Assembly: GCA_950295325.1 (NCBI GenBank)
Contig: OX485807.1
Location: 25,887,666-25,951,665, forward strand
Direction of reading: 5' to 3'
Length of the DNA stretch: 64,000 nt
From: Polytrichum commune
Lineage: Eukaryota > Streptophyta > Polytrichopsida > Polytrichales > Polytrichaceae
Positions 3,090-55,853 of the stretch are shown piece after piece. The notes beneath the pieces were generated by a model. That model was not told where the DNA came from, searched no databases, and worked only from the letters and a program-made list of their open reading frames with translations. The stretch's first letter is position 1. Every line of letters begins with the position of its first letter. A program made the position numbers and the translations under genes.

Positions 3090-3184
3090 TTTCTCGCAAG
3101 TTTGCGTGGCAAAAACCCACCTTGTTGTGATGTTCTGTTCGTAAGGTTGGGTAGTGGGTCTGCTTTACAGGTTTCTTCAATTGT

Positions 3185-4303: not shown

Positions 4304-4376
4304 TTGATTTGGGAGGAAGGGAAATTTATTTTGAAGGGTGATTGGTGTTGGTGTAGTATCTTGGTTGTGGATAAAT

Positions 4377-22721: not shown

Positions 22722-22794
22722 TAGTCCCTGCGGGTTTCGAACCCGCGACCTTTCGCGTGTAAAGCGAACGTGATAACCACTACACTAAGGAACC
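22722..22794 (-). tRNA. tRNA-Val (anticodon UAC)
   Basis: The minus strand folds as a full cloverleaf. The acceptor pairs GGTTCCT with AGGGACT (two G-U pairs), the D arm contains TAGTGTAGTGGTTATCACG, the anticodon stem is TTCGC/GCGAA around loop TTTACAC with anticodon TAC, and the T arm is GCGGG TTCGAAA CCCGC. The discriminator is A. There is no intron and CCA is not encoded, as expected for a nuclear tRNA. The box A and box B promoters are intact. Confidence 0.95.
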
Positions 22795-24120: not shown

Positions 24121-27100
24121 CTACTGATCAGGTACCAGCTTTGATCGCGACAAGCGTTTGCGCATGAGGTGGCGCCGTCTCTGAAGGGTTAACACGGATA
24201 ATAAGCTATCAGTGCTCACAACCTGGTACCCTGCATTTTGGTACATATTCAAAGGTGCGGTATCAACCATCCGGCAATGCAAATACATGTCCTGGCAGCC
24301 CATGGTCATTGCAAGATCCTCTGCCGCCTTCAACATCTGCCGACCAAGTCCCCTCCTGCACATGTTTATTGAATGATATTAGCACACCTTCTGTTTTAGC
24401 CAGTACTGAAACTTCATACCAATCAAGTTCCAGGATGAGGTAGTGTGATCCGAGTAATAGGGGCAGGAGATGTGCTTAAGGTATGTGGGCCTATAATGGA
24501 CACTCCAAACTCCACATACTCTTTAGGACGGGATCTAAAATTGTCGCATCTGATTAAGGTAGATGGGTCTTACATGGTTACTTGTTTTCACTAGCCCACT
24601 TCTCGTAGCATATGAAACATGCAATTGGTATGAGATAGTTAGCAAATCCAAATCGGGGCCACAGCCATTTTCGTCAATGTTTTCACAGCTCATATGTGTG
24701 TATCTTATTCATTATCAATATGAAGATTCTCATGATCATGACAGTCAGATAGGTCCCTCCAACTATGCTGACTATTGAGTCTAGAATGGTTATCATATGT
24801 TGAGGACACAATCTAATCTCTTTAAAACACATGTCATTTGATATCCATTCTTGGAGCCACACCTAACCGCATACCATTCAAAGTATAGGTGTCCAATCAA
24901 GATAAGTAAGCGATTTAAGCATGTCTACCAATTGTGAGTAAAGAAGATTGTTGTTTCAAGTGTCAAAAACAGATTTGAGATGCAAACATATAAGAGGTCA
25001 AAGGGAAGATTCTTTCTCTTTAAGTTGTGACATAGATCCTCCCAATTGTGGTAACTATTGAACCTAGAATGGTGTCCTTATTTTGAGCACGTAGTCCAAT
25101 CTCATCATAACACGTGTTTTTTTTGTGTCTGCTCTTAACTACAAGCCTTGCAATATACCACTCAAATATAGGTGTTCTCTTAAGGCCAGTATACCTTATT
25201 GAAGGTTGAGTTGGGGGAGGAAGAATAGGACACAGTCCATGCCTGGAGCATTTGTGGCCAACTTATTCAAATGGCTTCAGAGAAGTAGATAAATGACATG
25301 CTAAAACTCTCACAGTGGAGATAGTTCATTGCCAGTTTCTGCAACAGTAGCAAACCATGACTAAATCTAACCCTGAACTTGACTTTCATATACATTTTTT
25401 TCTGATTAAGACAAACCCAGTACGCAAGGACCTCTAACACTCCATACCGATCAAGTTCCAATATGAGGTGATCCCAGCAATAGGGGCAGAAAGTGTGCTT
25501 AAAGTAAGCGGGCCTAATTCAGTTACTTATCTTAAATGGACACCTATATTTGAGTGGTGTGGGCTTAGGTGTGGATCTAAGGATGGACGCCAAAAAGACA
25601 TCATGCGTTTGGAAGAGATTGGATTACCTGTTCAACATTTGTTGACCATTCTAGACTGGATATTCAACATGATTAGGGGGCCTAAGTGACCAAGTTATGA
25701 CTCTCTCACTGTCAACTTCCGAAAGGTATATCAATTCAGGGCGGGCTCCAAATTTCTCTGCGAATGAACCTGGATTCTCCGTCCACATTTGCGGACCAGC
25801 AAGAATTTAGAGTTTGTGAATTGGAATTGCATTTCATAACGAGCAGGAAAAAGTAACCATTTAAGACCCGTCCATCTTATGGGCAGCTTCAGAGAAGTCT
25901 AACAATGTCGTGCTAAAATCCTCACATTAGAAATAAGCTTAGATCATCAGCAATTTCTGCAATGGTAGAAAACCACGACTCCATCCAATGCTAAATTTGA
26001 CTGCCACGTACATTTCACTGCTTAGACAAACCCCCACTCCAAGGATCTCCGACATGTGAGTTTGGTACTTAATATGCTTACCTTCGATAGTCTTTGGTGA
26101 CAGCCATGTTGCAGATATACGGTGCATTTGAAGGAGGCGCCGGACTAGGGAGGTAAGGATGTCCACTTACAGAGAATGAAAGTTCCACTGTTCCAGCCAC
26201 AACCCAATTCCCTGCCCACCCATTATTGTTCTCTGTCTCAATAGTGTCTGAATTTTCCTCGGCAGGTGCAAAGAGGCCAACAAGCGTCACCGAATACGGT
26301 AAGGTTGCGTATCGTTCCCGCACATACTGCTTCACTGTGAGGGCTAAAAGAGGACGGTATGTGAGTAAACCTCCCATAAGTTCTGCAAATGAGTCCACCA
26401 GAAGCTCCTCAGTCGCGTTCATGTGCTCCGGTCGCATTGCTTGAACTACAAATACACCTTTGTCACTCACATGCCTGCACATATCAATTGCCACGTTGAG
26501 AGTTAGATACTCCTGCAGAAATTTAGGTGTGGCAATTTCAAGAGACTTGAATGTGCGTGGTAGGCTCTTATTGTAAATTTTTATCTGATTGCACAGGTTG
26601 GCAGTATACCTAGTGGTTACTTCTGCTCTCGTAAGTTGGAGTCTACTTGGTGAAGATTGAAACTGACCACAAAACCCTAAAGATCATTCCCAACTCTGAA
26701 AAGAAAATTCTTGGCATGGCCATTGCAAGAGGCAGACCGCAAAGAATTCAAAGTGTGCAGGTGAGTTTTATCTGATCACACAGATTGGTAGAGCTTTACT
26801 TTTATTCGTAAGTTTTTACTTGGTGAAGCTTGAAACTGAAGGCAAAACCTAAAGAGCATTCTCAAGTCTGATATTAATTTTTTTACATGGCCATCAAGAG
26901 ACTTTCAAAGCGCATGTTCAACTTTTATGATAAGAAATAATCTGATCACAAAGGTTGGCAGAGTTTTACTTTTACTCATGAGTGTGCGTCTACATGGTGA
27001 AGCTTGAAACTGAATGCAAAACCCGAAAGAACATTCTCAAGTCTGAAATCAAATTCTTGGTATGGCAATTGCAAGAGACAGACAGCAAAGACTTCAAAGT

Positions 27101-28195
27101 GCACGATCGAATTGCTATCATAAAAATTCCGATCACACAGGTTGGCAGAGATTTACTTCCACTCATAAAATGAGTCTATATAGTGAAGATTGAAACTGAA
27201 CACAAAACCCTAAAGAGCATTCTCAACTCTAAAATCGAATTCTTAGTATGGCCATTCCAAGAGACAGACAGCAAAGACTTAAAAGTGCGTGGTTGACTTT
27301 TCTCATGAAAACATGTCTGATCACACAGGTTTGCAGAGATTTAATTCCACTCATAAGTCAGAGTGTGCATGCTGAATCATGAAATTGAACACAAAACCCT
27401 AAAGAGCATTCTCATTCTCAACTTCACTTACCTGTACTCATATTTATGCAAGAACTTGACCTTCTCCGCTTCGGCAGGAGTCCAATTTCCCGGTTTCCCA
27501 TCAGGCAGGGGCAATAGATCCTCCGCCTTTCGTCTCTTAACCCCCCCTTGGTTGAATCCATCCTCCACATCACTGTCTACGTCACTTCCTTGCTCAGAAT
27601 CCGAAGAATCTTGATCACTTTCTGTGGCTCCCGTCAATGGTCTTGCTCCTTCTTCAGCTGCAAACATTTGCCAATTCTCGGCAACAAATTCATCTTCAGA
27701 GCTTCTTCTTGACTGCCTAACCTCATCCTCCTCTCCATTGCTTTCACTGATGTCATCATCCGGGATAGGGCTCCCATTTGTACCTAGAGATTGTGATGTT
27801 GTTATTTTATTTGCAATGTCCGCTTCAACTTGCTCCGAGGTGCTCAGTTTTTCAGAGGTAAATCCAGCCTCACTGGCATCACCTTCTTCTTCCGAACAAT
27901 TCTCCTCGACGAGAGGCTCAAGACCTAAATTGTCAACTCCGGAGACATAAATCTTCCGTTGCCTTGGCTTCGCAGAGAAAAAACTCTTGCAAATCCTTGG
28001 TGGAGTCACCACAAATTGTTGACCTATATTACATCTAGAGAAGAATGATTTTTTTCTAAATTGAAGACAAGAGAAATGTGGACGATGATGATGAGACTGC
28101 ACTAAGGCGGCTCTGCAATGATTCTGAGCTCCTTCATGGCAACCATTAGGCGACGAAGTACACAGAGGCGGTCCTACACCTATGGAAATCCCCAT
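24121..28195 (-). CDS. GCN5-related N-acetyltransferase (GNAT), probably plastid-targeted
   Basis: Three exons join in phase: 28195-27432, 26474-26082, 24355-24121, about 463 residues. Exon 1 gives a basic, Ser/His-rich N-terminus, a long acidic region (SESNGEEDE, SDSEQGSDVDSDVED) and LPDGKPGNWTPAEAEKVKFL. Exon 2 carries VVQAMRPEHMNATEELLVDSF, AGTVELSFSVSG and APYICNMAVTKDYRR. Exon 3 completes RRGLGRQML, the acetyl-CoA-binding motif A (R/Q-x-x-G-x-G/A), then LHCRMVDTAPLNMYQNAGY and LQRRRHLMRKRLS. Plants have a GNAT family with this C-terminus; substrates are not evident from sequence. The acidic N-terminal segment looks unusually long. Exon 2 starts at GTGCAG|GCATG because the more upstream AG gives a stop. 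It is convergent with RH17 and divergent from the phosphatase-like gene. Confidence 0.88.
24558..24929 (+). mobile_element. 372-bp non-coding TIR element (GGTAGAY family), GNAT intron 2
   Basis: Left end GGTAGATGGGTCTTACATGG and right end the inverse of GGTAGACATGCTTAAATCG, so about 26 bp of imperfect terminal inverted repeat. The interior has TTATTCATTATCAATATG and ATAGGTCCCTCCAACTATG, shared with other fragments. Target duplication unclear. Confidence 0.7.
25503..25880 (-). mobile_element. TIR element of the GGTAGAY family, inverted copy, GNAT intron 2
   Basis: The left end AGTAAGCGGGCCTAATTCAG and right end (inverse of TAAGATGGACGGGTCTTAAA) both run into GTTACTT motifs. The interior shares ACACCTATATTTGAGTGG with the related copies in reverse orientation. 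A neighbouring fragment at about 25000-25200 is the opposite way round. Confidence 0.6.
26584..27430. repeat. Five tandem copies of a ~185-bp unit in GNAT intron 1
   Basis: Units start at about 26584, 26769, 26940, 27127 and 27318, each with GATCACACAGGTTGGCAGAG, then TTACTTTTACTC, TGAAGCTTGAAACTGA and AAAACCCTAAAGAGCATTCTC. Periods are 171-191 bp. The last unit reaches within about 25 bp of the exon-1 splice donor (27431-27430). Together they make up most of the 957-bp intron. Confidence 0.85.
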
Positions 28196-29123
28196 GACAA
28201 CAAATTGCTAAAGAATTCACCAAAGCAAAAAGAAAAGGGATGCTCTGATAAACCTCCTACAAGTTTCCTTGAACTTCAGAGACAAGGATTCTTGTGCAAC
28301 CAATACATGGTACACGATGTCTACGGCCTCCTCCACCTTCTCAAACACAAGCATATGTAAATCCTGTAAAAAGATAAACCTTTTAACAAATGAGCCCAAC
28401 TGAATAAGACCAGACTACCCTTCCTCCTCAGAATTGATGCATATTTTGGCTAAGGTTTATTGATGAGGCTATGTAACCCATTACATTTGACCAAGAAATC
28501 AACATTCGTGACATAACAAGAGCATCCAAGCTTTTATCTTCGAGATGCGTCCTCCCAGCCGAGGAGGTCACCGTTATTTTGGCATGCCCTTTGTTCAGCG
28601 AATTCTCATAGCAGGGATCTGGACTCTAAAATGATGAGAGGAGAAAAACAGGGGGCCCAAGGAGAACTAACGATAGGCGAGAGCAGTTTTCTCGTAAGTG
28701 CCGGAGCCACTGAGACTCTGCCACGTGACAAAGGCATACTTATCCTCTTTTTATGGCGATATTCTTGTCAGTTCTCGGTTGGGTTGCCACTTTATCACCA
28801 TCCTTGCCCACCTAATCCATTTGCCACCCTGAAATTGTGAAGAAAAAGCCATCATCAAGACCTGCTGTCATCACAATCTACAATGTACTCTCAAAAGGAT
28901 AGGCTCCGTTATCCACTTCCAAAAACTTCACCAAAATCATCCTCACGCAGTCCAGATTCTCACTCTCGAATGTGACTTGGGTTTGGAGGTTTTCATGACA
29001 ACAGGTTTAGCAAGATCGTGGCTCTGGAATTTTGTTTTCGAAGGTATGGGTCAACGGCAGTAAGGTTGCAGTAGCACTTACCCCTGTGGATAGTAATTGA
29101 AGGTATTGCTTCCGATTTCCGAG
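28196..29123. other. Divergent intergenic region shared by GNAT and the phosphatase-like gene
   Basis: 928 bp separate the two ATGs, which point away from each other, so this stretch must hold both 5' UTRs and promoters. No telo-box or clear TATA pair was identified. Confidence 0.5.
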
Positions 29124-32100
29124 ATGAATACATGCAAAGTCATAGTGAAGCATGGGGTTTCACTTGTAACGGGAGCTTCCACTTCGAATTCGAATTCGAG
29201 TAGTTCCTTCCATGGCAATATGGGTACCATGGCAAATGCCCATAGGTTAGTCCCTCTTTGTTCATCTTCTTCTTCATCGTCCTCTTCGCAAGCTGAGTTT
29301 TTCTCAGTGCGGGCACTTGCGCATTCGTTCCCTCATCTTTGTGCCAGGCAAGCTCCCTCGCAGCAGCTGCAGCAATGGCGGAGCTTCGGCCAATCGCAGG
29401 CTCTGCAGTACAACAGCCTCGGAGGCCCATTTTTGGTGAGCTTCAAGAGGTCCGTTCGCAATGGAGATGGCTCCACAACAATTGTTGCGTCTTCGCAGAA
29501 TGGTGGTGAGAAAGATGTAGCGGTGGTCGCACAGCAGCAGGAGGAGGATGGAGGTCCCAAGTTCGATGTGAGCAGCAATTGTGTGACTCCCGTGTTCCGA
29601 TTCTCGCCCTTCATCCAGCAACCTTCGGTATGTCTGTCTGTCTGTCTGTCCGTCCCATTACTCTTTTTCGTGCTTCTGCCCGAAAATTGGTTCCCAAGAC
29701 CTTTGGTTTCCGAATCACATGGTTAAGCTATGTGCAAGAACATATCAGCTTCACGTAGCCACAACCGAAAAGCTTACAGAGTAGCCATTTGAGGGATGAT
29801 GATGCATCGTCATCATCTCTTAAGCTGAAACAGAGGCGACATGAATGTGACATTTTCGTCGCCTTAAACCTGCAGGACTTGTAATGTGTTTCGCAATGGA
29901 TGGTTTCGCTCACCATCTTTTCTCACTTTGGTTCATCTTGTAGTGAAGTTGAGTTCTGTTTCTCCACTAACCTTCGGTATGTCTGTCTGTCTGTCCCATG
30001 TTTTCTTTCTTGAGCTTCCGCACAAGAAATTTGGTTTAGAAGACTTGCAATGGTTTCAAACCACACTATTGAAGAAAATTTGAATACTTAGTATTGAACT
30101 TTCGGTCTTCAGCAACCTTCAGTCTGTTTGTCTGTCTTTCTGTCTTGTCTGTCCCATTTTCTTTTCCTTGAGCTTCCGCACACAGAAATTTGGTTTCTAA
30201 GACTTGTGATGGTTTCAAAACCTCACAACGGAAAGGGCTTACGTAGTAGCCATTTGAGGGATGATTATCTCTTAAGGCTGGAACAGATGCGACATGAATG
30301 TGAAATTGTTGTTACCTAAAACCTGCAGGGCTTGCATTTCAGAGGGTTCCTGCAATGGATGATCCGTTTGCTTCCCTCATCATTTTTACTCGCTATGGTT
30401 CACCTTATAGTTCATTTCCTCTTCCTTGAGCTTCCGCAAAAAAAATCGGTTTACAAGACTTATGACGGTTTTAAAACCACACTATGGAGGTTATTTTGAA
30501 CACACAAGTATTAAACGTTCGCTCTCCATCTTTTTCAATTGAGTTCACCTTATAAGTTGGATTCTCCCAGTTTCTCCAGCAACCTTCGGTAGGTCCGTCT
30601 GTTCCATTTTCTGTTCCTTGAGCTTCCGCACACAAAAATTCGGTTTTCTATGACTAGTCATGGTTTTAAAACCTCTCTACGGAAAGGCTTACATAGTAGG
30701 CATTTAAGGGATGGTGATAAGGCTGAAACAGAGGTGGCATGAATGTGGAAACTGTTTTTTGCCTTAAACCTGCAGGACTTACATTTTATTGGGTTTCTGT
30801 AATGGATGATCCGTTTGCTTTTCTCTCCATCTCTCTCACTTGTGTCACGTTGTAGTGAAGTTGTATCCCTTAATTCCTTAGTTGCAAGAAAGGATTATTC
30901 AATGTGACAACGCACCCTCAATAACTGAAAACACTGGTGATTCTGTAAGAAGGTTGATGCTCAGAAAATAAGGGACGTTGAACTGTAACATGCTTTCCTT
31001 TTGCAGGACCTGGAGAATACGAACCTCCGAATCCTCTTCCTGAGTGAGGGTAATGTGTGTCGATCTGTCTATGCTGAAGCGATTTTTAATTCCCTTATTG
31101 AAGAGCATGGGATGCAAGAATTTGTTGAATGTTCTTCAAAGGTATGATGAATCTGTTTTTAACTCTTTTTCTTCTTTGTAACCTCGAAGTGTGGGGATGT
31201 AAGTATTTCTTGTAATAGGTGGTACTTGCTATATATTCAACTTGTAATACATTTGCAAGGTCTGATTACAAAATTATGCTTGTTACGACTGAAGAGGGAA
31301 TACTATTTTAAGGAAGCTCAAGGTCGGAGTCTCAAATTTCGAGTGAGTTAGCAGAGAACCTGACATATGCTTAGGTTTCAATGCATTGGTCCTAGACCAC
31401 ACAACATAATTGTATGAAAGATCAACTGAGTGTGGAATTGGTTGGACTTAACAATTTCTGGCCACCATCTGCAGGGTTCAAGGGATTACAACATTGGTGA
31501 ACGCCCTGATCCTCGAGCATTGCAAGTAGCTGAGGAATTGGGATTGAAGTTGCCAGATGGCGTAGCCCGTGTTTTTGATTGTCATTCTGACATTGTTTTA
31601 TCGGATCTACTGGTTGTTATGGATAAGGTGATGAATGTAGACAAATATTAGCGTCTTTTATAGCTCTTTTTGTTACTTCCATCAAATAAAACAATCTTTG
31701 AGCAATTAAATGAACTTTTCATTAAACTGCATCAAACGAAGTTTATGTCACATAAAGATCTGGGCATTTCCTCACAAGCAATCTTGCTTTGTTCACTGAA
31801 TCTCAAATGTTTGATTGGCTACATTTTGCAGTTCAATGCATCAGATGTTCTCAAGGAGGTCACTGTATATGAGGCAGTTGATAAGGAGGCTCAATATTGT
31901 TACAAAGTGCGACGCCTTTCTGAATTTTGCAGGACAAAAGTGGTGTGGTACCCTTACCCTACCCATTTCCGTCTTTAGAACCACATTTGAATCACCATTT
32001 TCGTGTGCCTATTCAAGAAGTAGACAGTGCAATATGCAAAAGTGAATGAGCTGGAGAGTCTCAATGCGAACTTGATCAAACAGCCTTGTAGTTGTAATAT

Positions 32101-32892
32101 GCACACATCAAATACTTTAAAAGAGCGTCCTGGGTATCAATGTTTCAGTATGTGCTTATACAAACTAAGAACTCTAAGGTCTCTTGGAATACGAAGATCG
32201 TAATATGTAATGGTTGCTACAGACCCGAACTTTGTGTGTGGGTGATAATTTTGGGAGAGGATGTGTGCTGACAGATAGAAGACATCGATGATCCACTTTA
32301 TGGCAACATGGGGGGCCCTGAGGAATTGGTACTTTTTCTCCTTAACAAGCATTTCTGCTCTTTAATAAAACACTTGAATCTGTCACTTGACCATGTCTGG
32401 TGGACGCATTTTAGTGTAACAAATAACTTACATTTGTGTTTCAAAGATCACATATCTTCAATTTCAACTGCAATTTTATGACCCTGGACTTTGATTTTTC
32501 CAGGACCTCCTGCGTGAGGCATATGAAGACATACGAGATTCTTGTGTAGGCCTCATGCAGACTATACTGGACATCAAGGCCAATCTCCAAGGTATCAAAA
32601 TGTGCATAGTTTGATAAATATTCAGTTTCTCGCAGTCAAATCATGAACACCTTTGTTGCATATATACCAATCAAATTGGTCAGGTTAATTTCTTGTGGAG
32701 CACAGCAGTTTTATTTTTTGCATTAATTTTTCTGTTTCGTTTGGAACTATTTTCTGTGACGTAGGTTCAGAGACCATAAAGCAGGGAATAGCGAAATCGC
32801 TGGGTGAAATGGAGTCACTGGACTGGCTCGTACCTCCGATGCTGCAGAAAGCAGACTCTATTTTAACTGAGCGAAATCTGGAGCAATTTTAA
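29124..32892 (+). CDS. Low-molecular-weight protein tyrosine phosphatase-like protein lacking the nucleophilic Cys
   Basis: Seven exons: 29124-29627, 31007-31141, 31475-31627, 31832-31942 (or -31939), 32275-32328, 32504-32591, 32765-32892, about 390 residues. The first ~160 residues are Ser-rich with few acidic residues near the start, like a plastid transit peptide. The LMW-PTP domain begins LRILFLSEGNVCRSVYAEAI; the family signature is C-L-G-N-x-C-R-S, so the first Cys (nucleophile) is Ser and the next residue is Glu. GSRDYNIGERPDPRALQVAEELG and the general-acid loop DIDDPLYGNMGGPEEL follow, then a ~70-residue helical tail ending in ERNLEQF. The P-loop Arg and acid Asp remain. The expected chemistry (phosphotyrosine hydrolysis through a Cys-phosphate) should fail, so a binding or redirected role is likelier. 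Intron 1 carries tandem duplications. Confidence 0.9.
29617..30800 (+). repeat. ~450-bp tandem duplications in intron 1 copying the exon-1 tail and splice donor
   Basis: The real junction CAACCTTCG|GTATGTCTG (29627/29628) is echoed at 29976/29977 (CCTTCG|GTATGTCTG), about 30120 (CCTTCAGTCTG, donor lost) and 30588/30589 (CCTTCG|GTAGGTCCG). A second landmark, GTAGCCATTTGAGGGATGAT, recurs near 29780, 30248 and 30696. Before the copy at 30588, about 30 bases resemble the exon tail. Confidence 0.8.
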
Positions 32893-34952
32893 CTCCAATT
32901 AAGCCGTTTCCTTCCATCAACCACAGTTTCATTTAGCTTCTATGGCGTCCAGAGAACATAGCCAATTATTATCATTGTTGTAGGGTCCAACAGACCTGAT
33001 ATTACTTGACGAGAAGCAGAAGAATAACTCTGATCTTCAAGGACCACCGGCATGAAACTTATAGGTGTTCATTCATTGGATAGAATTCATCACAGAAAAG
33101 AAAATTAGGAATGTCAGTGTTTTTGGCACTGACATGCGATGTCCGTTCTCCAATCCCTACCCATGACCGCATGGCCATGGGGGGCATGGGATTGGATAGC
33201 ATTTACAAGCAGGAAGCAAGTAGTGAGACAGTCCCACTTAGCTAATTTTGTTTCAAGGTATGTAGTAGTTAGGTATTCACCTTCTCAATTGATTAGAGCG
33301 GTATTTCTACAGGTTTTGTAAAGGTTCAATTAGAAATGTTGATACGGTTAGAAAGCACATGACAGTGGTGGATTGTGATGGGAGTCCTGTTATCTATCCT
33401 GTTACCGAGAACTCAATTCATGGTTGAGGTTTGCAGAGGAAAAGTGTTGAGGTTATTGGTTATTCACCTCTACTTATTTCATTTCTAGTTATTTCAAAAA
33501 TTTGATCTCTCATTTTATGTCTACTTATGTCATTTACACATTATTTCGAAATTCCTTCTTTTCACTCTTAAAATAAAAAGGTTCAAATGAAGGTCTTGCC
33601 AAGAAAATTGGCAAAACTTCTGGAAATTAATTTTCACAGCTGAACTTGTGATACCTTTTCTTTTTTGCTCCTCACTGCATCTGCACAGCTTTGCAGCCAA
33701 TAAGACAGAGGGAAGCTATGACAGGAATTTCATAATGAACCAAAATTAAGTGGCATATTAGGCACCAAATTATTGTTGGTATCTTTCATACTACACAATT
33801 TTCCCTTTGCAAACACACTACCTTACTCTTCAAGCCTTTGCTTGCATAGGCAGTGGTCAGTATAATCCATCACCTTACCTTGCCCTGAGGCTGAGCTGTT
33901 AAATTTTAAGTGTGCTACGAAACAGAATGGTTCTAAAATCTCTCACTATCTCCATGTGCAGCATAGATGTCATTTTATCTTGATACTACAAAAAATACAA
34001 AACAAAAGGTAGACAACAAAGTGAAAGGAGATGCACGCAAAATATGTAACCTGTTATGAAAAATAAATGAAAGCATCCTGTTCCAATGCAGTGCACTGGA
34101 AGGATGTGCAGTTTTAGATGCTCCATTTTCAAGTCCTTGAACACTACATAGTCACAAAACTGGGGCATGGCATCCTTTTAAATTCATGACTACAACATAA
34201 CATTCTTGATTACTTGGCAGACTCCTCATATTAGACTCCTAATATCATATCCCTAGATATGCCAGAAAAATATTCCTTTCTACCCATCACTTAAGTTGAA
34301 TCCAGAGAATATTGGTTTCATGTCTAAAAATAACTAACAAAGAGGCAAGGACCATATAAGAAGAGTTTGCCACCAGCCTCTGCTCTTCTTCCATTCCTAG
34401 AAATGAACGCCCTTATTCTTAGAGATTCTTTCCTGCTAATTTCGAGATGAAAAGGGCACAAGCTCACAAACACTTAACTACTGTCTTGCAGTGCATTTAC
34501 ACACAACCACTGTTATGGTGGTTGTATTTTACTCTCTTTGGCTTTATTTTTGAGGGATGAGGATAGGGTGCATTCATGACAAGCACAACACAAGCACAAC
34601 TACTCTACCTTGCCCAACTCAGATACAAGTTGTAGTTGGGAGTAGTTGTGAGGGCTGTAGTTTCAAACTTTCTTTGGTTCTACTCTGTTTGTAGTTACTA
34701 TGTGGCACCAGGAGTGAACTTCCAAGGCCAAAGCATGGGAGAAAAGGATTTGTTAGGCGGACATTACCCTTGTAAGAACTTTGCACTAGAATCCATAAAA
34801 TGTTTGTCTCCAATCCACGAATTTCAGCAATAGGAGGGGCTATCATTGAGGTCAAATCCACTCTTCAACTATAAGAGTAGTTGTGTGTGAACACACCTTC
34901 GGATCCATTTTCTTACAAAGGCTCTGCAGCCCAAGGCTTTGGAACATCTATT
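32893..34952. other. Convergent intergenic region between the phosphatase-like gene and SLP2
   Basis: Both neighbours end here, so it contains their 3' UTRs. No third gene, RNA or complete transposon was seen in about 2 kb. Confidence 0.5.
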
Positions 34953-37900
34953 TCAAGCAAATCTCTTGGGTATTTGCCCTAACAAAGATGCAAGCCCTCG
35001 CGTATTCTCCTCCTTTTTCACCATACTAACAGTATTCTCCATAGCACCACCACTTGGATTGATGAGAGTTGGAGGTGACCGTGACGACAGCACACGGAGT
35101 TGTTTGTCACCACAAATCTCTAAAACTTGAGGCTCACCATCCCCACAGCCTTTGGATAAACCAACGTCGACGCGGATTACCTTGTTATCACAAGCTGCAT
35201 TTAACCCCACAGGTTGTTGGATGGTGTGTCCAACAACCATCCTCTTCACTCCGGTAATTGAATCAAGGCATCGTGTGAGTAGCTCACAATCACATTTACT
35301 CTCTTTGACATCCGAGAATTTTCGCAGCCACACGAGTGCGTTTGACCCGTGCAAGTAACCAGGTCCCCTCCATCCCTTCATCCCCCGCATCCACTCACTC
35401 ACCTGCAACAATCATGGAAATACAGTCAAGAAATAGTTTGCAACTACTAGAGTAATTGTTTAACTCAATGGGACTTGCCTGCGTGAGGAGTTGGTCCCAT
35501 ATGTTTTCCCATTGGATATTTTACATACAGAATCAATAATCTCTTTCCATTTGTGGTGCATGCTTGGAGGTAGTGTTTTGAGTTTCAATGAAGAGCAACC
35601 TGCCAGACTCACTTTAGCAACCTCTTGGCATGCCAAAATGACTGACCCCTCAATGGTTCAAACCTCCACAACGCACCGGAAACTAACCAAACATGGAAAG
35701 TGTTTCCAACCAAAAGTGCTGAGTCGAAGGATAACTGCTATTGTAATAATGTTCCATATTAGGAAAATGGCTACAGCCTTGATTTGTGTCTACTAATCAT
35801 CTTGTAATAATTGTGTGTCTAATATCCTAGGAGAAGTGGATGCAGAGCAAAAAGCATCCATTTTAGGCCCAGTTAGGTTATTTTGTAGCCACTGAAACAA
35901 CATGACAAGTATACCAATTCAAGACGGAATTATGAAGCATTAATATAATAAAATTGCAAGAAGCAGCGTGAGACTCACCTCCTCATTTATACGATCCAGC
36001 CCATGTTCTACATGGACTGGCAAGAGTCCACCATGGACGAAAACCGAACTCCCCACTACAAGGACAGTTGGATGGTTTGACAGGAACCGCGATGAGATTG
36101 GACCCCCAGGCCTCAAGGCTGCGATTCGGGCTCTCAAACCCACAGGAAAGGAGTCTGGGATGTCATGAAATATGTTTGGTTGCTTTCCTAGCCCGACACA
36201 TTTCTCCTTCAGGATGTTTCCGAGGTTGAACCAGTGTGCCCAGCTATAAAACTCATCCAACCCAGCACTCGTCACATACCGGAAATCACCCTCGATGTTC
36301 ATGATCTCGTGGTTCCCATTCATGATGTGGACATTGCCTCCTGCTCGTTGCGCCTGCCCTCTTAGCTTTTCCAGCAGATAGAGAACTCTGATCTCCTCAC
36401 CACCCCTGTCTAACAGGTCTCCTACCTGCAAAAACATAAATATCATTCATCAGAGCATTGTAATGTGAAAAGAAGAGACGATCTTTGACATGTACATCTC
36501 TTAAATTCAGACAATGGCCAAAAAATCCAGAGCAGTGCACGAGGAACCACCAATCCCACCAATGCCCATGTCCATCCTCACAGAACGTAACATTACCTAG
36601 ATGTAGTAATGCAATCAATCTTATCACAACAACCTGTCACTGAAGCCTTAAACATACGAGCATACAATATTATCAGAGAGGATATGACTGCTTCACACTT
36701 CATACTAACAGTAAAAAAGTCCGCAAAACGTCATCACAAACCTCTAAAATCATATATCAACACTGACTTCACATTGACACAACCACATCAACCTACAACA
36801 TTGAATCCATGCCTACCAAACACAGAGTTGCAATATTGACCTTTTGTTTCACTACATTATAGAAACAAAAGTTGAATCATGAGATGTTGACTGGATCATT
36901 AGCTAAATGTTGTTAAAATAGCACTGAAAATATATAAAACCCTGAAGTGTATGTATCGACACGAACTCAACATTAAACACTGGTCACTTGCATTTGGAGA
37001 TGTTCAAACCAACAATCTGGACCCTCCAGTTTCTTGAGGAGAATACATCAACAATTGACAGGACTCACCATCAATTGTCTCCTATGTGTTCTCAGATTTA
37101 CCAGTTACTTGGTGTCAAATTCAGCAGACACCTTCTTCAGCCTTGCATTACATTGCAGATACTTTCACTTTATCCCTCCGTTGCTATGTGATTAACTAAC
37201 ACACGAGTCCTAAAACCATACCAGATTGCAGTTACACCTCATTGCATGCTCACCTTAAATGGCATACAAGCGGTCTTCCGACTTCCTCAAGTAGATGCGC
37301 AGAAAAGGATGGGTCAAGAAATTTGCTCTCGGACCTGGACAACAATGCATGGCACTGCATTGCAGGTACTTCCAATTCATTCCTCCTTTGCTGTGTGAAT
37401 GAATGACAAACCAACGAGTCCTAAACCAAGACCAGCTTGCAGTTAGGCTTGCTCACCTTCATTATCCACACAGATGGACTTCCAACTTTCTCAAGCACAT
37501 GCACACAAGATAAAAAGGATAGGTCAAGAATAAATGTTACTCACATACCTGGACAACCACAGTTTCGCCACCAACCCATTCGTCATTTTCATCGATTACA
37601 TTCGCAATTCGCAAGGCAGCTCGAGCTTTGGCTATGTCGCCATGGATGTCCCCTATGGCAATCAACCGCTCCGGGGCCGGCAACCATGTCCTTAACCCCC
37701 CGCCTCCAACATCTACCCAGTCCGAGGCCATGATGTCCGCATCAAGTCCCACTTTCGCGCCACTTTTGGGTTGTAAGGAAGACAAAAACATTGCCTCCTC
37801 CTCCTCCGGGCTGGAAGGGGAAGGGGAAGGGGAAGGGGTAGCTCCTTCCCCTGCATTATTTCCACCAAGGAACTGACCTCCGACCGCATAATCCACAAAT

Positions 37901-38034
37901 GCATCCACAAAGGAGGAGAATAGAGACGGCACTTCCTTCTTGCAGAATGTGGTAGAGTCATGGGATTTCCCCACATTCTTCACATCATCAACATCATATA
38001 GCCGAGGTAGCGCTTCCGCTACCGCAGTAGGCAT
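34953..38034 (-). CDS. SLP2: Shewanella-like protein phosphatase 2 (SLP2)
   Basis: PPP-family metallophosphatase of bacterial-like type; in Arabidopsis SLP2 is a mitochondrial intermembrane-space Tyr phosphatase partnered by the oxidoreductase Mia40. Three exons in phase: 38034-37549, 36425-35979, 35402-34953, about 460 residues. The start resembles SLP2 (PSLFSSFVDAFVDYAVGG). Metal and catalytic motifs are complete: GDIHGD, GDLLDRGGE, GNHE (MNGNHEIMN), FVHGGLLP and VVGHTIQ. IEGDFRYVTSAGLDEF, NALVWLRKF and RVDVGLSKGC are family signatures. It is about 70 residues longer than recalled Arabidopsis SLP2: an acidic/PSPSPS insert near residues 65-90, encoded by a GGGGAA microsatellite (37811-37838), and a C-terminal extension after QLRVLSSRSP. 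Most divalent-metal ligands are intact. Confidence 0.94.
37147..37557. repeat. ~205-bp tandem duplication in SLP2 intron 1 including the splice donor
   Basis: Copy 1 (37147-37343) and copy 2 (about 37354-37557) share CATTGCAG, CGAGTCCTAAA, TTGCAGTTA and GGTCAAGAA in order. Copy 2 ends in the real exon-1/donor junction, and copy 1 ends in the same ACCTGGACAAC, so on the coding strand GTTGTCCAG|GT is present twice. Confidence 0.8.
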
Positions 38035-38571
38035 TGCTAACGTTTGAATTCAATTCAATTCAATCCCCTTCTCCTCTTCCCTTGCCCCTCCGCACCATCA
38101 ATGGCGATTGCAATAATAAACCCCTAATTCAAGACCTAGCACTTCATCCCCTGCATGCAAAAAATCAAATCTCACTGACTACATATTCTAAGCCTCCAAA
38201 TCTGAAAGGTGGAATCAAAGGCCCCAACTGGGCATTCTGGAAACTCGTGCAGGGAAAACAACGAAACGGATTGTCACCCTAAATGTTGTAATCAGCGAAA
38301 AGAGAAAGACAGAGAGGTGAAGTCAATTCTGTGAAGGTAGTTGACAAACCATCGGCTTCCCACGCACAAGTTACCTAGTCACAACTGCGGTTGGTTGGCG
38401 CTCAGCGTGAATTTGCGCACAAATTTTCTCGCAAAAATGAAGGCAAACTTTGATGAATCTGTCATCCTGTAAGCAAAAAAAAGTGGGTAAGTCTACGGCT
38501 TCCGGTGTCGCATGCATGCTGGAAGCATCATGAATTTAATAATATTTTGTTTCCTCTCACTAACATGTTCC

Positions 38572-38614
38572 GACGGTTTGGCCGAGTGGTCTAAGGCGCT
38601 GGATTTAGGCTCCA

Positions 38615-38646
<32 letters not shown>

Positions 38647-38651
38647 CGTCA
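38572..38651 (+). tRNA. tRNA-Leu (anticodon UAG)
   Basis: Complete cloverleaf with the long variable arm of Leu tRNAs. The acceptor pairs GACGGTT with AGCCGTC, the D arm has TGGCCGAGTGGTCTAAGGC, the anticodon stem CTGGA/TCCAG encloses TTTAGGC (anticodon TAG), and the T loop is GGGTTCAAATCCC. The discriminator is A. No intron; CCA is not encoded. Confidence 0.96.
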
Positions 38652-39267
38652 GAGAAGGTGGGCTCCTCTTCGTATATGAGCTCTTCGCACTTTTTATTTT
38701 CTTTTTCTTTATCTTATGACACAAATGGATTTCCTTTACAAGATCGTACCAATATGACGAGGACAACAAAACCTTATAAGGTGAGTTTCCATGTAGGATA
38801 GTGGGAATAAGGATAACCTCGTCCAAATGTAGATGGAATATGATGGGGTAGGGTTTATATGTGCCAAGTAGTTATACCCTAACCTCCACAACGTCACCCT
38901 TTGTGATGTTACTCCCTCTCTTATATCTTGAAAACTTTTTAGGGAATAGATATGTTCAATTTAGATCTCCTTCCTTGTTGTCACATTTTCCTCTCATATA
39001 TCATAGGTATTGACATTATAATAATCCATTAAAGAATTTAGACCACATGCTCGTACTCATCTTGTTGTCGTTATAGCAATGTTGACTTTGTGTTATTTCA
39101 TAATATCACATGTTACACTAATTCTCTATTATCACGCATCCATGTTAACACTATAGACCTCCTTAATATCAAGTGCACTTTGGTTGTCACAAGTGTGATA
39201 CTAGAGAAGTTAGAGTGTACTCTCATCTTTGCAAATGCAAGCCCGCTTACTAACCTCCTCCTCCACA
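38652..39267. other. Intergenic, no gene seen
   Basis: AT-rich sequence between tRNA-Leu and a TTAA-flanked element. No ORF or repeat of note. Confidence 0.4.
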
Positions 39268-39271
39268 TTAA

Positions 39272-40096
39272 CCCCTAAGTGCCCAAGCCTTTCGGAATGC
39301 ACTTTTCCTAAGAAATATGTGCATGGCTTTAATACAATCCCCAATGGAGGAATTTGTCTTTTATCCAAAATCTAACCGTATAGATGTTTAAAGAACTTGT
39401 TTATTAGTATGCATACCAATTTTGAGACCGAGATTGCATAAGAGTTGTGAGATTCAAACAAGAGAAATGTATACATTCTTTTTTTTGTATGCCGCCCCTC
39501 CCCACAATGTTGGTATGATTTGCTCATAAGTGTTTTTAGGAGTTTGAGGTGACACGAACAACTCCAACATGTGAAAGAATACGAAAATGTGATTCCAAAG
39601 ACCCTATGTATGCATATAGAGCTATCCCAATCATTTCGCAATCCTCCTTGCAATTCTTGAAATGCATTTTCTTTATTTTAACACTTGACGATTTGATATT
39701 GCAAATTACTTCACATTGGTAATTGTGAATACTAATATTCGACGGTCAAAAATACGGAATTTTTTTACTCTTTCCACTACGACACTTTTCAAAAGAAATG
39801 AATAATGAGAACTCTTTGGATGTCAAAAACAAGTACAATAGTCCAATTAGCTGAAACATTGAGGAAATAGTAAAGCACTTTCTCCACCCATTCCCTACAT
39901 CACGGACATATATGCCTTTGCGACCCTCTCTAAAATCGAATATTTACTCTTTTTGGTCAAAAATGCCTCAATCCAAAAGCTGCCCTTCCATACTGCCCGC
40001 CAAAAACATTTACGCGGTCAAAGGAATTTACCTGCCCACACACAAACGAGCCGAAATTTTTGGTCAACCATATATGGTTGCTCGGGCACTTAGGGG
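39272..40096. mobile_element. 825-bp TIR element flanked by TTAA (family copy B)
   Basis: Left end CCCCTAAGTGCCCAAGC and right end, inverted, CCCCTAAGTGCCCGAGC (16 of 17 identical), with TTAA at 39268-39271 and 40097-40100. No coding capacity. The interior is unlike copy A, so only the termini and target define the family. Confidence 0.78.
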
Positions 40097-40189
40097 TTAA
40101 AACCTCCTTCTAAAATCCAGTCTTTAATTCTTCGGTGACCAACACTTGTAAGTTAAAAAGTGCTTCAATAGACTCATAAAAATCTAGAG

Positions 40190-40331
40190 ACCCACGTCCA
40201 CGGCCCTCCAGATTCTAGTAGACCACGAGAATGTGGTTGGTTGATGACTTGTGCTTATCTACTTGAAAACACCTCCAACCCACTATTAATTAGAATCGAA
40301 TGGACAAGTGACCTTCGTGGAAACTCACCCT
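40190..40331 (+). mobile_element. Right-end fragment of the GGGTGAGTTTC TIR family
   Basis: CCACGGCCCTCCAGATTCTAG, then GACAAGTGACC and GTGGAAACTCACCC correspond in order to the interior and right end of the element at 59804-60198. The left end is missing. Confidence 0.5.
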
Positions 40332-41871
40332 AAGAATTTGTTCTCCTAGGGACCAAGTTGGTGTATAGATCAAGACACAAAAGAGAACTAAGGACGAGTG
40401 GTCAAGAAGCCAAGTGGCGTGTAATCCAAGGTGGGAGCAAGGCCACCAAGGGGAAAGCACCTATTGCACACCTCCATTGAGGTTGGAAAAACCAAGGGTG
40501 AGCGGCACCACTAAATTATAAATTAAACCTAGTGCACTCCTTCAAAAGGAGGTCGAGAAACCTATCATTGGACACCCTTTTCCGTACACTTGCAAATTAT
40601 CTCATGAAGACCCCCAAGACTTGGAGTTGTTTAGCTTTGCAGAAATGACGAGGAGGATTTCAACCTCGAAATTCGGTGCCCTTGAGATTAGTGTGAAATA
40701 TCCTCCTTTGGGTTGGAGGGAAAACCTAAGATGTGTGGATCTTATGAATGGCATGTGCTAAGGCTTGTACTTATAAATGGGCATCAAAAAAGACAAGTGT
40801 TGTGATAACATTAGACTATGTGCTCAAAAATAGGTGTGTGAATTGGTGGAGGTTCGGTAATATCGCATGATTGGGGAGGGCTTATGTGATCTTTTAAAGA
40901 GAGAGAGAGAGAGAGAATCTTCACTTTGTCTTTTTATAACTTTGAACATCTCAACTCCAATCGTGAAACTTGAAATGACAATACGCATGTGCTAATTGCA
41001 TAAGACAACTCCCAACCCGGTCCAACATGAGAATTGGCATGTGGAGTTGATAAGTGCCCACAATTGGGCCACATACCTTAAGCAAAAGGGAGAGAAACAT
41101 ACTTGGAGGCAATTTGGTGGTGCCGCAAAATGTCACTTGAGGCGAATCAAGCTATTGTAGGCTAATAACAAGTTGGGCGGAAAATAACCAAGCCTATTCT
41201 TTTTGGAAAATACTAAGTCAAATGGCCTAAATGAAAGGAAAAATAATCATCGAAATGTCTAAATATTAGGAAATTTGGTGCCATCTCTCTCAACTTGGGT
41301 ATTCAAAACTTCAATATCACTTCCAAAACTAAATAATCTCTTATCATTATCAATGGGATGGAACATATGATTGATTTGCCTTTGCCTCTTATCCATGCTT
41401 GCAAATTCTCAAACAGTCTCTAGCAAGGATGAGCACAAAGTGATAGAAAGCATTGTTCACAACCCTAATTAGCAGCTTAAGACAACTTAACCTAAACCCT
41501 AGAGGTTAACATCGTGTCCTTAGCCGCCATGAATGAAGGAAAAATAAGTTGCAATACATGGATTTGTATGTAGGATATGTTATGTGCCTAAAATAAATAA
41601 ACATGCATATACTTATTTGAATAATTTGTCATAAATGTTTTTACAAACCACCTAAGCCCTTTTTTTTAATTAAATAATTACGGGATATTGTATGTACAAC
41701 CTGCTATCAACCTACAGAAATAGCATGTCATGAAGGAGCTTATAAGAACCATGAGGGACCACATCATTAGAATAGCCTTAGGAACCTAGGAGCTCCAAAT
41801 ATTGGAACAAATTGGCATTAAGTCTAATACACAAGCTTTGCATGAAACACTCTGTGTATCAATTTGAGGCA
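40332..41871. other. Intergenic, no gene seen
   Basis: Contains a short GA microsatellite near 40898-40917 and an AT-rich stretch at 41570-41700. No supported gene. Confidence 0.4.
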
Positions 41872-42235
41872 CCATGGGCCTTGGCTTGGTGGTTAGGGCC
41901 CATGGTCTCCAATGAGGAGGTTGTGGGTTTTATTCCCCATGCCGGCGTGGTGCTCACCACCTTAGACCAGCCAACTATGGTGGGGGGTCCTTGGACCTTG
42001 TTGTATGGGTACCTCAAAGCCCTTTGGGGGGATACCATGTCCAGTATCTTCAAGGCACTAGTGGCTAGCTAGGAACTGGTATAGTGTGTCACTATAGTGC
42101 CCATCCTCGAAAGGGGAGAGTAGTATTGCCCCAATGTCCCCTTGTCCGGTGGGCATCGGGTCATTGACATTACGAATGGACACTTTATTCACGTCGGCCC
42201 CTTGCTAAAAAGGGACCGGAGTTTTTATCTATTTG
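41872..42235 (+). mobile_element. tRNA-derived SINE
   Basis: The head has polymerase III promoter boxes at tRNA spacing: box A TGGCTTGGTGG (41882-41892) and box B GGGTTTTATTCCC (41935-41947), about 50 bp apart, within a tRNA-like context. A tRNA-unrelated body of about 280 bp with TTAGACCAGCC and AAAAAGGGACCGGAG follows, ending near TTTTTATCTATTTGTATC. Box B has T where CG is usual, so it is probably inactive. Confidence 0.7.
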
Positions 42236-42247
42236 TATCAGTTCCAA

Positions 42248-42470
42248 TGATCGGGGAGATTTTTGGGCATAATCGGTTGAGATCCTAGTGTTTGCAAGTC
42301 CAACCAGTTACATGTTGACATCCTTCGGTTTTTCTATATAAAATTTAGGTATATTCCTTAAATTCATCTAAAGTCATCAGTAATTCTCCTGAAGTCTGGA
42401 ACTTCAACCGGTTATTCCTCAAACTCAACTGGTTCATTTGCAACTAACTGCCAGTTCTCCCTGATCATAG
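42248..42470 (+). repeat. Dispersed 230-bp repeat, copy 2
   Basis: TCGGGGAGATTTTTGGGCAT ... CATGTTGACATCC ... CAACCGGTTATTCCTCAAAC ... CAACTGGTTCATTTG parallels 21668-21895 with roughly one difference in five bases. It directly follows the SINE. Confidence 0.7.
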
Positions 42471-43789
42471 ATCAGCTCCCAAATATGACAAGATGTCGAG
42501 AATTAGGCAATTAGAATTAAATTGTTGACCTCCGAGCTTCAGCTTTAAGTCCTTAAAAGTGTGTTTTGTGACAAATATATCCATGTTGCATACAATTTGT
42601 GATTATCTTCACTGTTTGGGTAGTATATACAATGCTCTCCACAAAGTAGCACTAACTGGTAAGTTACTGTTGTGCGAAGTTCATTTAAGCACCATTAATG
42701 TGAGTTATCCACACACAAGCAATCTTCTCATCAACATTTATTGTTCTGATAGTAATTTAAGACGTGCGCCAAACCATTCACCATTCATTGCATAGCCCTT
42801 CATGAAATTTTCCACTACCTATGTACCTTACAATTTTGCGTACCCTATACTTACTTTACCAGCAGGTCCACACCCAATGTGATAGGCTTTGCTTCTACAA
42901 CCCACAACAAGCACCCCCCATATCATTATGGAGCTTCCCTCAAAAGCCCCAAAAACATGTTTTCACCTCAATATGGCAATTCATGGGCATGCTGTAATGT
43001 TGGCCACTCAAGAGAACCCCTAACCTTTTAAGAAAGGTCCTACAAACAAATCCAGGTCAGCTAACTCATCATCTGCGAACCATCTGCTTATAATTGAAGT
43101 TGTCATAATTTCTGTGGTTGTGTCACGTAGTGATGATCCTGGCGATCAAAAGTGTAGAAGGATAATGGTCAACTACATTGTGTCATTAGAGAAATGTAGG
43201 ACTTTGGGTTTTAAAACTGTTCAATCTACACCTTATGTAACATATACCCCATTTGATTGATACAAAACCCACGAACTTTCAGAAATCAACCAACCCCGTG
43301 ATCAATTTTCCATCCAACATGGAAACAGGTCAAGTAAGGAAGAAAAGGGAAATTGGTTGGCAATCAACCCACTATGAATTTATGCAATTCATGTGCCAAT
43401 TTATGTCAAAATCGCAATGCCCAACTTTGCTACGCCCTGTTTAGAACATGTCTGTACACTTTAAGTCAAACATCTCCTACTCAGAAAAACTCATCGGTGA
43501 GGGATCCTAGTCTAACCTAGCCATTGCACATGATAACACATTGGGATCAACCACATCTCGTAACAATGCACAGTATACCACAAAGGAAGTGACAGTCGAT
43601 CCCTAACAGTTCACCTTTCACCCCGAGACTTCCACCGTACATTGAAAAGGTGGAGTCTTATGCAGAAGTTCTGTTGACATGGATACACAATTGATCACAC
43701 CATGCTCATGGAGCTCATCAACTGGCAAGCTGCCTTGACATCTTAAGGCTAGATGTTTTAACAGGGCTGAGATTTTGAAGCTGCATGTC
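42471..43789. other. Intergenic, no gene seen
   Basis: No supported ORF or repeat; the right end is probably the ABT1 3' UTR. Confidence 0.4.
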
Positions 43790-46700
43790 TCACTTCTTTC
43801 CAAAGACCTGCATGATATATACACAATGTGAGACTTGAACCTTCCATAGCACAAGAGTTTATTTTGCCACAATTGAATCATGTCAGCCCGAGTCCAATCA
43901 AAGCATATCTGACAAATCATCCATTTAGCTTAAAATCAAAATCAAGTAGAACCAAACAGATTCTAGAATGGATAACTCTGTATTTTTTGAAAGTTCCAAG
44001 GGAATCGCTTCCTTACCCCTGCCAGCACATCATGAGAAATTGTAGCACTTCTGTCTGTAACACCACCAGCAAAAGGCCTCCGTTGAGAGAAGTTCCGCAC
44101 TGGCTTGGGCCTTGAGGTCTTTTGAACATCATCCACCGCAGTGCTAGGTTTCTCAGGTTGTTGTCCCTCCAGCTCCTTCTTCTGCCAAAATATCAGAAAA
44201 TTAGTGAACATAGAAGTCTCCCAAAATAACGCTGATCGTAGTAAATACTGCAGGCCACTCTATTGAGATTATTTCCACACTAGAAATGTTGGAAAGAATT
44301 TTGTGGGTGCACACTATTTACCAAGCCACAGTATCTAACATTGGAGGTCCACAGTGCAGGTTTCAATATTTTTTTTGAATTGAAACAAACTGTGAATTTG
44401 AACTACCTTCAACCTAAAGGAAGGAGGTGGGTAATATCACTGGGACATGACAAGCGCAACTAGGGTTGCACATTATTTGCACATGTGAGGGTGTATACTG
44501 TGGGCCACACTACAGGGCTGCCCAGGGAAAGTCACACTATACATCTACCTACACTACTTAATATAATCAGTGTGGAAATAATACAGATAAATGCTTTAAT
44601 ACAAGTGGAGTCCAACTCTGGTGCATATATCTTGCATGTTTGTGATTTCCTTACACTTTATGTCATGCAGTAGGTCAGCTGCACAACATCAAATAAAAAA
44701 AGACGTACCTTTTTCTTCCTCTCTTCCATGGAATTGATCGCACGAGACTGATCAACTTTAGATAAATAGAAGTCTCGCTCTTTCTTGGCAGCTGAAATTT
44801 CAGCAGCCAATCTTTGTTCCCTAACAGCATTCTTATAAGCTGCAGAATACACACAATTACCAATTTGTCACTTTGGGCATGACCAATCTTAACCACTGGA
44901 CCAAGTCCTTTCCCAAATCCTAGACAGTACTAATTAAGTATTGTGGAAGAAAACCAAGGACCACATGACCAACCTGGATGAAGGTGGTCTCAACAGTTTC
45001 CCAACAGTCTACAAAGGTAAAAGATATCAATACGTCTCAAAGGCCTATCAACTCTACGTTGCAGACCTTAAACATGCACAAACTTTACATCTCACATTGA
45101 AATTATTCTCAAAAAAGAACTTTGCGAAGATGAAAAAGGAGGAGGTGCACATACCAATTTCCTCAGTTAGATTATCCCATTTAAACTTATGCAGGTATTT
45201 GATATTCCATAGGTCATAATGATACGCAGAGCGCTTTGAAGAATCTGGTTCAACAATTGCAGGCAAAATTTGTTGATCAGCCTCCACTTGTCAAGTTTTC
45301 ATGAATAAGCTCCAATACATAAACTTGCATAAACTTGTACAATGAACAGAAAAACCAACTGCTATAGATTACAGATGTTAGTGATATCCTTTGCCTGTGA
45401 CTTATTGGGTAAGTTCTTTCATGAGTAACACTCCAAGGACAAAAATTTCAAAGACTGCTCAGACTCACAAAATTTTATGAAGTAATGCATACATTTCAAT
45501 TCATAATTCCATTTCAATGGACGGAAAGTGGAAAAGAGAGTTGCAGTGCACATACCCATGGATTCCCCATTAAGCATTGCAGCTATTTTTTTTGCGTCAC
45601 TTTTATGAGCGAACTCGACCCATCTGCAATATTACATGAGTTGCAAAGAATGAGAAACAATCCTAGAGAAAAAAATCTTAACATATCCTTGAAGACTTGA
45701 GAAATCCATACTTACATGGTAGCTTAAACAGTAAGATGATCTTATTTAAGGTTACCACAATTCTTCAGAGGTAAGAAATTAAATAAAAACCTTGTAATCA
45801 AGAGATAGTTTTTAGGAGTAATACGCACAAAAACATTTGACCAACGTGGTGGCCACTGAAGTGACTGCAAGACGGAATCGTTTTCTAAACGTAGCTAAGA
45901 GACCCTAAACCCATCCCGAATCAAAGACAAGCACTTGACAAGTTCATTAAATTTTCTCTAACACCCTATAACAATGCCATACCCTTCAGTGAAATTTTTT
46001 CCACTATTCCCTCCTGATCGTTTCCGGCGCAGTCTTGCAGCCGCATCTGGCAAAACCGTAAGCCCAATATGCATATTATTAAAAACTACAAACATGTATG
46101 AAGGTTCTTCACAATTACAAGGATTTCGAAATTCCTGGAAAATAAGTTCTTCTCTACATCTTTCCAGCCGTCTTTCTCTGCTGCTTCCTCATCACATTGT
46201 CATGCAGCCCATAAAAATTGTACTTAGCAAACACAATTTGCAAACTCGAATGCAGTGTCTACATAAGAGACCTAACTTTGATGATCTCCTCCTCGCATTC
46301 AACCCCCAATGCGATAAATCCCTCCAATTGACCTTTCTCAAGAGTAACAAATTTTTAAAATCCTATGTCATCAAACCCTAAACCCTAACATTCAGCTCTC
46401 TAAATTGCACTTGATGCACATAGCGAACACAAATCGCGAACTCAAATGCAAGATGTCAAAGTCGCAAAATGATGACCTCCTCCTCACTTCACTCCCCCAG
46501 CAAGCTGAATATTACCAATTAACCACTCTCAAAGTACTAATCAAAAACCAAGTAGGTCATCAGCCCCTAAACTCCAACCCTAACATTCGGGTTTGATAAG
46601 GCAATTTCGGCACCTTCGGGAGCGAGGTATATCCGCAGCACTTCACCGAATTGTGAAAGAAGATGCCGCAATTTTAAGGGCTTCAAATGCGGCGGAATGC

Positions 46701-54307: not shown

Positions 54308-54681
54308 GACAAATGTTTTCAAACGCATTATGCATTTGTGTATCCAACCACCGGGTTGAAAAAAACTCACAACAACCATTGAATGAACTTTGTGAACAAC
54401 TTGTTGGACCACGTGACATCTTTCAAAACGAGGTGAATGTATTTGCATGCATGGTTTATTGTAAGAAATTTCAAATGGAGGCCACAATATTCTCCCCATG
54501 GAATTTACGTGGATTCTAGTCGAACTTTGACCATTTCCGGGCACATTCATGTGCACCCAAAAACTTACTAGGCCGAATAGAGAAAATTAATATAGTCCAC
54601 ACATGTGATGACAATTCCTGCAGTTTTGCTTGTTGTTGACTTTGGGTTCGCCACCAAAAAAGAATGTGTTCTTAGTACTTA

Positions 54682-55269: not shown

Positions 55270-55272
55270 TTA

Positions 55273-55850: not shown

Positions 55851-55853
55851 TTA

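Follow-up and report, generated by a model that had tools for sequence, protein, structure and literature searches.

Four array-bearing introns in a 64-kb window

We analysed a 64,000-nucleotide stretch of the genome of the moss Polytrichum commune (contig OX485807.1, positions 25,887,666 to 25,951,665 of the forward strand; hereafter the window), in which an earlier note had described tandem repeats of unrelated sequence just behind the first exon of four genes. By their Pfam domains these are a GNAT gene (PF00583), a low-molecular-weight phosphatase-like gene (LMWPc, PF01451; PHOS), a metallophosphatase gene (Metallophos, PF00149; SLP2) and an ABT1/ESF2-like gene (RRM; ABT1), with a DEAD helicase gene, RH17, as the fifth gene considered; the names SLP2, ABT1 and RH17 are those of an earlier reader, and Pfam supports them at the domain level only. 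Gene models combine a simple in-house predictor, open frames and reading by eye. The intron behind the eye-read exon 1 lies at 26475..27431 on the minus strand in GNAT (exon 1 ends at 27432, the donor G is 27431 and exon 2 starts at 26474) and at 29628..31006 on the plus strand in PHOS, both with the boundaries of the automatic model and an open frame. Intron 1 of SLP2, taken from the automatic model, occupies 36426..37548 (minus strand), and that of ABT1, read by eye at the donor CCCGAAG/GTGCCG and giving a joined protein that includes LAPEDAAARL, occupies 46047..46613 (minus strand). Full agreement with the automatic models is limited to SLP2, since in GNAT and PHOS these have an extra intron upstream, and in ABT1, where we preferred the unbroken frame instead, they use a different donor. 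Because the open frames run unbroken from the ATG to the donor, we class all four as first introns, a term that in the window means the intron after the eye-read exon 1, with introns in the 5' untranslated region possible further upstream.

Arrays were detected by self-BLASTN of the window, with Tandem Repeats Finder (TRF) run alongside. All four arrays described earlier were recovered, with main alignments 67-75% identical, and they are real and old. The GNAT array (26538..27414, minus strand) has a period of ~187 bp and ~4.7 copies (75% identity, expectation value (E) 4e-113) and fills almost the entire intron, while the PHOS array (29599..30863, plus strand) is a mosaic with a higher-order unit of ~464 bp (67% identity, E 4e-63). 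SLP2 carries two units of ~207 bp (37145..37557, minus strand; 70.6% identity, E 3e-20) and ABT1 two units of ~196 bp (46219..46588, minus strand; 67.6% identity, E 5e-4), the latter being the weakest of the four. TRF reported the GNAT array only, missing those of PHOS, SLP2 and ABT1. Measured from the donor, the 5' edges of the arrays lie at -29 bp (PHOS), -9 bp (SLP2), +17 bp (GNAT) and +25 bp (ABT1), with the PHOS offset shifted by 1 bp and the ABT1 offset by 4 bp so as to start from the actual GT, so that the arrays do touch the 5' splice site or lie within about 30 bp of it, as had been noticed. It was likewise correct that the unit takes in the exon tail and GT in two genes: in SLP2 it includes the final 9 bp of exon 1, and in PHOS the exon-1 tail (up to 29 bp) with its GT donor recurs three further times, at 29963, 30110 and 30560. 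The first-intron region of RH17 (13396..14443, plus strand; automatic model) gave no self-match and serves as the array-free negative case.

The four array introns show no cross-match among themselves, and the array parts match neither other window DNA nor any of 90 loci cut from the genome; the sole outside match in this comparison (134 bp, 69%) falls in the non-array part of the SLP2 intron. The GNAT unit, which was also searched genome-wide, matches its own array only, whereas the arrays of PHOS, SLP2 and ABT1 were compared with the window and the 90 loci. The claim that the differing units do not derive from one transposon is supported, the more so as a coding exon tail is itself copied. 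Most arrays, in the window and in the sample described below, lack cross-matches and are of local origin, and a common repeat family was rejected. A transposon, a satellite or an artefact of the gene models would still have in its favour that two sampled arrays (L026 and intron 2 of L031) contain dispersed repeats, and that the in-house predictor departs from our reading upstream of the array in three of the four window genes; set against the private units and the coding exon tails that form part of them, we regard such an origin as very unlikely for the pattern as a whole, although the array in intron 2 of L031 may represent two insertions instead of one duplication. Young head-to-tail duplications also occur in the window outside the studied first introns, at 10926-11588 (330 bp x2, 95%) and 54678-55854 (591 bp x2, 93%), so that first introns are not the only place where DNA is duplicated in tandem.

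Tandem arrays in first and later introns across the genome

The comparison of first with later introns was carried out on 81 further loci from the same 408-Mb genome assembly, of which contigs C1-C7 make up 406 Mb, fitting seven chromosomes, a number found in Polytrichaceae. A light-harvesting protein encoded in this assembly has its best full-length matches in PDB chains 8htu_U and 7xqp_a, entries of the moss Physcomitrium, while the top-ranked row is a longer chain that matches in two stretches. The first set (32 loci) was picked by matches to PF00118, PF00227, PF00171 and PF00083 before any array search, and the second (49 loci) by matches to PF00179, PF00071 and PF00160 after the hypothesis had been formed and before the sequences were seen. 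The sets omit matches that run full-length in a single frame, most genes in which just one exon was matched, noticed near-duplicates and a few others. An array was called from BLASTN alignments of at least 60 bp under fixed settings, which produced hits of that length in 0 of 243 block-shuffled loci; shorter hits (L018, L019, L037, L059) went uncounted, and the array of L045 (148-bp offset, 71%), being neither fully upstream nor in a counted intron, stands outside all counts. Five models (L015, L016, L023, L024 and L026) were corrected by eye before the main count, and since all five are array loci this may favour the hypothesis, so counts from uncorrected models are also given. First exons are less secure in the second set, for which the excised upstream stretches were shorter. 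A third set of eight light-harvesting genes was inspected only and enters no statistic; in one of the eight (L086) tandem copies lie close to the 5' end, in a gene model that is unsure.

With both sets pooled, 12 of the 78 first introns carry arrays, against 4 of the 255 later ones (p = 1.1e-5); when automatic models alone are used the counts are 10/78 and 6/258 (p = 6.5e-4). The first set gave 9/31 against 2/143 (p = 2.6e-6; automatic models, 7/31 against 3/146, p = 2e-4). An ungapped test, in which 222 introns with lengths of 200-2500 bp were each compared with 19 shuffles, pointed the same way: all shuffles were beaten by 17 of 60 first and 18 of 162 later introns (p = 0.003), and beaten by a margin of at least 3, a margin chosen afterwards, by 14/60 and 7/162 (p = 7e-5). 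The array excess in first introns is measured on the pooled sample, and its cause is what we infer below. Per length of DNA, 68.6 kb of upstream sequence had hits at 3 loci, 44.3 kb of first-intron sequence had them in 12 introns and 92.9 kb of later-intron sequence in 4; given the scarcity of upstream hits relative to first introns, the bias is directed towards the transcribed side. At one locus (L074, oriented 387-747), a cyclophilin gene, a 78-bp tandem array of ~93% identity precedes the predicted start codon.

The main rival to a process directed at gene starts is tolerance alone, by which duplications would arise evenly along genes and survive mainly in first introns, where both length and extra donors behind the cap-proximal exon are tolerated. 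First introns are longer in eukaryotes generally, according to the portion of PMC2518113 drawn on here, and they are so in this genome too: among array-free introns, 23 of 66 first and 44 of 251 later ones reach at least 500 bp, a difference of about two-fold. Even among introns of at least 500 bp, however, arrays are present in 11 of 34 first introns and only 4 of 48 later ones (p = 0.008). Long later introns are common, 48 of 255 being of this size, yet only 4 carry arrays, whereas under tolerance alone purely intronic arrays would be expected at equal frequency per kilobase. We consider this explanation possible, and the strongest of the alternatives, while judging it the less probable account.

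Exon tails, donor copies and the history of the arrays

Exon ends were screened against their own introns at a score of at least 16, a value that, with 12 shuffles per case, the highest-scoring shuffle attained once in 591 cases, using the corrected models and the eye-read window exons. Copies of the exon tail together with the donor were found for 4 of 54 first-exon donors and for none of 210 later donors (p = 0.0016), or 5/59 and 0/227 with the window genes added, SLP2 with its 9 bp of tail falling under the threshold. By eye, such copies are seen in L014, L015, L026, L031, PHOS and SLP2: in L015, which like L014 encodes a proteasome subunit, the donor and the 20 bp of exon 1 that precede it are present five times, and similar exon-tail copies are present three times each in L014, in the aldehyde dehydrogenase gene L026 and in the sugar transporter gene L031, originals included. 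The exon part of these donor-crossing arrays is 9-67 bp long in units of about 200-460 bp. On the acceptor side the screen gave 1 of 68 first introns (L034) and 1 of 215 later ones (L019). In L034 the second exon of the model lies within the array and is probably spurious. In L019 a 33-bp piece of exon is repeated in intron 5 (oriented 3578-3610 and 3808-3840, 97%), possibly a young instance of exon copying, or exon stuttering, from the acceptor side of a later intron. The confinement of donor-crossing arrays to first introns, the shortness of the exon tails and the near absence of acceptor-side copies, limited to the doubtful exon of L034 and the short repeat of L019, are also what tolerance alone would predict.

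The tails and donors might instead be read as traces of intron gain by duplication. A unit that contains an exon tail and GT would suit such an origin, as would L024, in which intron 1 and exon 2 both begin with GTAAGT (read by eye), and a single-gene case is known from potato, in which, by the excerpt of PMC4974935 used here, a tandem duplication over an exon-intron boundary supplied the splice signals. The potato duplication spans the first intron and second exon and created a new intron in one gene, whereas here an existing intron was expanded on its donor side. The paralogues L013 and L014 share the exon junction, and the intron is 396 bp long and array-free in L013 and 1044 bp long with an array in L014; because L013 carries the same intron unexpanded, the array of L014 expanded an intron that already existed, in the one pair compared. 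In addition, SLP2, L015, L026 and L031 retain about 680-900 bp of intron beyond the array, and intron gain is on these grounds scarcely credible as the general explanation.

Within three arrays the identities between units are nearly equal, or star-like (68-81% in GNAT, 74-79% in L015 and 71-78% in L023), a pattern that fits an origin in a burst and later decay, without ongoing homogenisation. Homogenisation between neighbours was rejected for the same three arrays, which show no gradient.

This decay also bears on selection for longer or richer first introns, in which the units would be kept as carriers of expression-enhancing elements (intron-mediated enhancement, telobox or U1 donor copies). 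The sense telobox TAGGGTTT occurs at 0.40-0.42 per kb in first introns and 0.17 per kb in later ones (~2.4-fold), TTAGGGTT is repeated in GNAT, ABT1 and L015, and GT is kept in 12 of 14 exon-tail copies counted by eye. Conversely, neither TTAGGGTT nor its complement occurs in 10 of the 12 array introns sampled or in two of the four from the window, the enhancement motif TTNGATYTG is found in just one of the 12 sampled array introns, and the star-like units show no visible conservation beyond these motifs. Neither telobox nor enhancement motif is general across the array introns, and both were rejected as a shared unit; selection of this kind appears improbable to us, if less so than intron gain or a transposon.

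Relation to sequence stuttering and a possible mechanism

Recurrent tandem copying of this kind in unrelated genes has so far been described mainly in bird chromosomes, and the closest known system is that of the chicken dot chromosomes, where sequence or exon stuttering is presented by its authors as novel and as not found in other vertebrates except gerbils (PMC12954441, as excerpted). In the passages of that source at hand, the chicken repeats are imperfect, with tandem blocks that measure from tens to hundreds of base pairs, and are intronic and of local origin, and in a subset an exon edge and its splice site are copied through the intron while the coding sequence stays intact. The moss arrays are likewise local, imperfect and confined to introns, apart from a few upstream arrays and the dispersed repeats in L026 and intron 2 of L031, and copies of an exon edge with its splice site are present in the six genes named above. 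The copied exon part measures 20-187 bp (median 36) in the chicken, against 9-67 bp here. The same passages describe GC-rich dot chromosomes with suspected roles for G-quadruplexes (G4) and recombination, copying from donor or acceptor side and length polymorphism, and they contain no description of a first-intron bias. Here, in contrast, we see a plant with large chromosomes, array introns with a GC content of 0.38-0.46 and no association with GC richness or G4 (16 array introns), a first-intron bias, copying from the donor side and old, star-like copies. Among the matches listed in a search of open-licence literature there was no plant report of a recurrent first-intron tandem duplication pattern, and the stuttering term combined with intron yielded PMC12954441 only.

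We favour burst-like local tandem duplication of the stuttering type known from chicken, biased to the 5' ends of genes and with its copies tolerated, and give this reading a probability of about one half. Under this scheme a stretch of ~145-465 bp, with an edge between ~70 bp before and a few hundred base pairs after the first donor, would be multiplied in a burst, and the units would then decay without homogenisation, as the three arrays analysed did. Copies of exon tail and donor would remain intronic, leaving the protein unchanged provided that the cap-proximal donor is still used, and the first donor could be kept in use because exon 1 is cap-defined. The most likely cause would be a duplication process tied to the transcribed 5' end, such as a co-transcriptional R-loop, RNA polymerase II pausing or break repair, combined with a tolerance of extra donors that extends only to positions past the cap-proximal exon. 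A stronger version, in which the process acts at the boundary of exon 1 and intron 1 during transcription, repeatedly lengthens first introns by copies of tail and donor, and thereby helps to explain why long first introns are so widespread, is a tentative proposal that we think rather unlikely to hold in full.

Several results weigh against this stuttering-like reading. The second set taken alone is not significant (3/47 first against 2/112 later introns, p = 0.15; automatic models, 3/47 against 3/112, p = 0.36), and the first-intron rate differs between the two sets (p = 0.01). The excess expected from the window is thus borne out in the pooled sample and among introns of at least 500 bp but not in the second set by itself, and the four genes in five with which the earlier note began overstate the frequency, which is 12/78 in the sample. 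In introns of at least 700 bp the ungapped test weakens to p = 0.09 and 0.07. Of ten purely intronic arrays, only six lie closer to the donor than to the acceptor, so that closeness to the donor, clear for the window arrays, is partly an effect of short introns; the excess in first introns and the exon tails copied on the donor side are the stronger facts. The dispersed repeats in two sampled arrays also count here. The 16 array introns contain no G4 motif at a GC content in the range given above, and GC skew, besides being variable, is raised only modestly. Skew is not decisive and G4 is absent, and both were rejected as causes; a recurrent local process is upheld insofar as the arrays recur in unrelated genes with differing units, while R-loop-linked or replication slippage, proposed along with it, may be among its causes.

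These results suggest that the exon stuttering reported from birds in 2026 as a novel instability also occurs in plants, in a version that lacks GC richness and markedly favours first introns and the donor side. It offers a testable source of long first introns, for which the part of PMC2518113 consulted proposes functional motifs and filler DNA and does not name tandem duplication, as well as a natural record of duplication sites along transcription units.

Other observations concern gene copies in the sampled families and the remainder of the window. Fourteen equal-score matches to the light-harvesting family lie within ~95 kb on both strands of C5 (1751760-1846160). Three pairs of genes in inverted orientation whose match scores are identical or nearly so (C5:85805-87783 and 136636-138615; C4:20178525-20179770 and 20181569-20182814; C1:4132030-4133499 and 4152197-4153666) suggest recent inverted duplications. 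The chaperonin, proteasome, aldehyde dehydrogenase and sugar transporter families include full-length single-frame matches beside multi-exon relatives, which are possibly retrocopies. In the window, open frames on the minus strand at 910-5696 contain a reverse-transcriptase-like stretch (FYIDFKNAFGSIDH .. YADDL), a motif by which we take this segment to be probably a retrotransposon without long terminal repeats (non-LTR). Two tRNA genes are present, tRNA-Val (tac) at 22722-22794 on the minus strand and tRNA-Leu (tag) at 38572-38651 on the plus strand.

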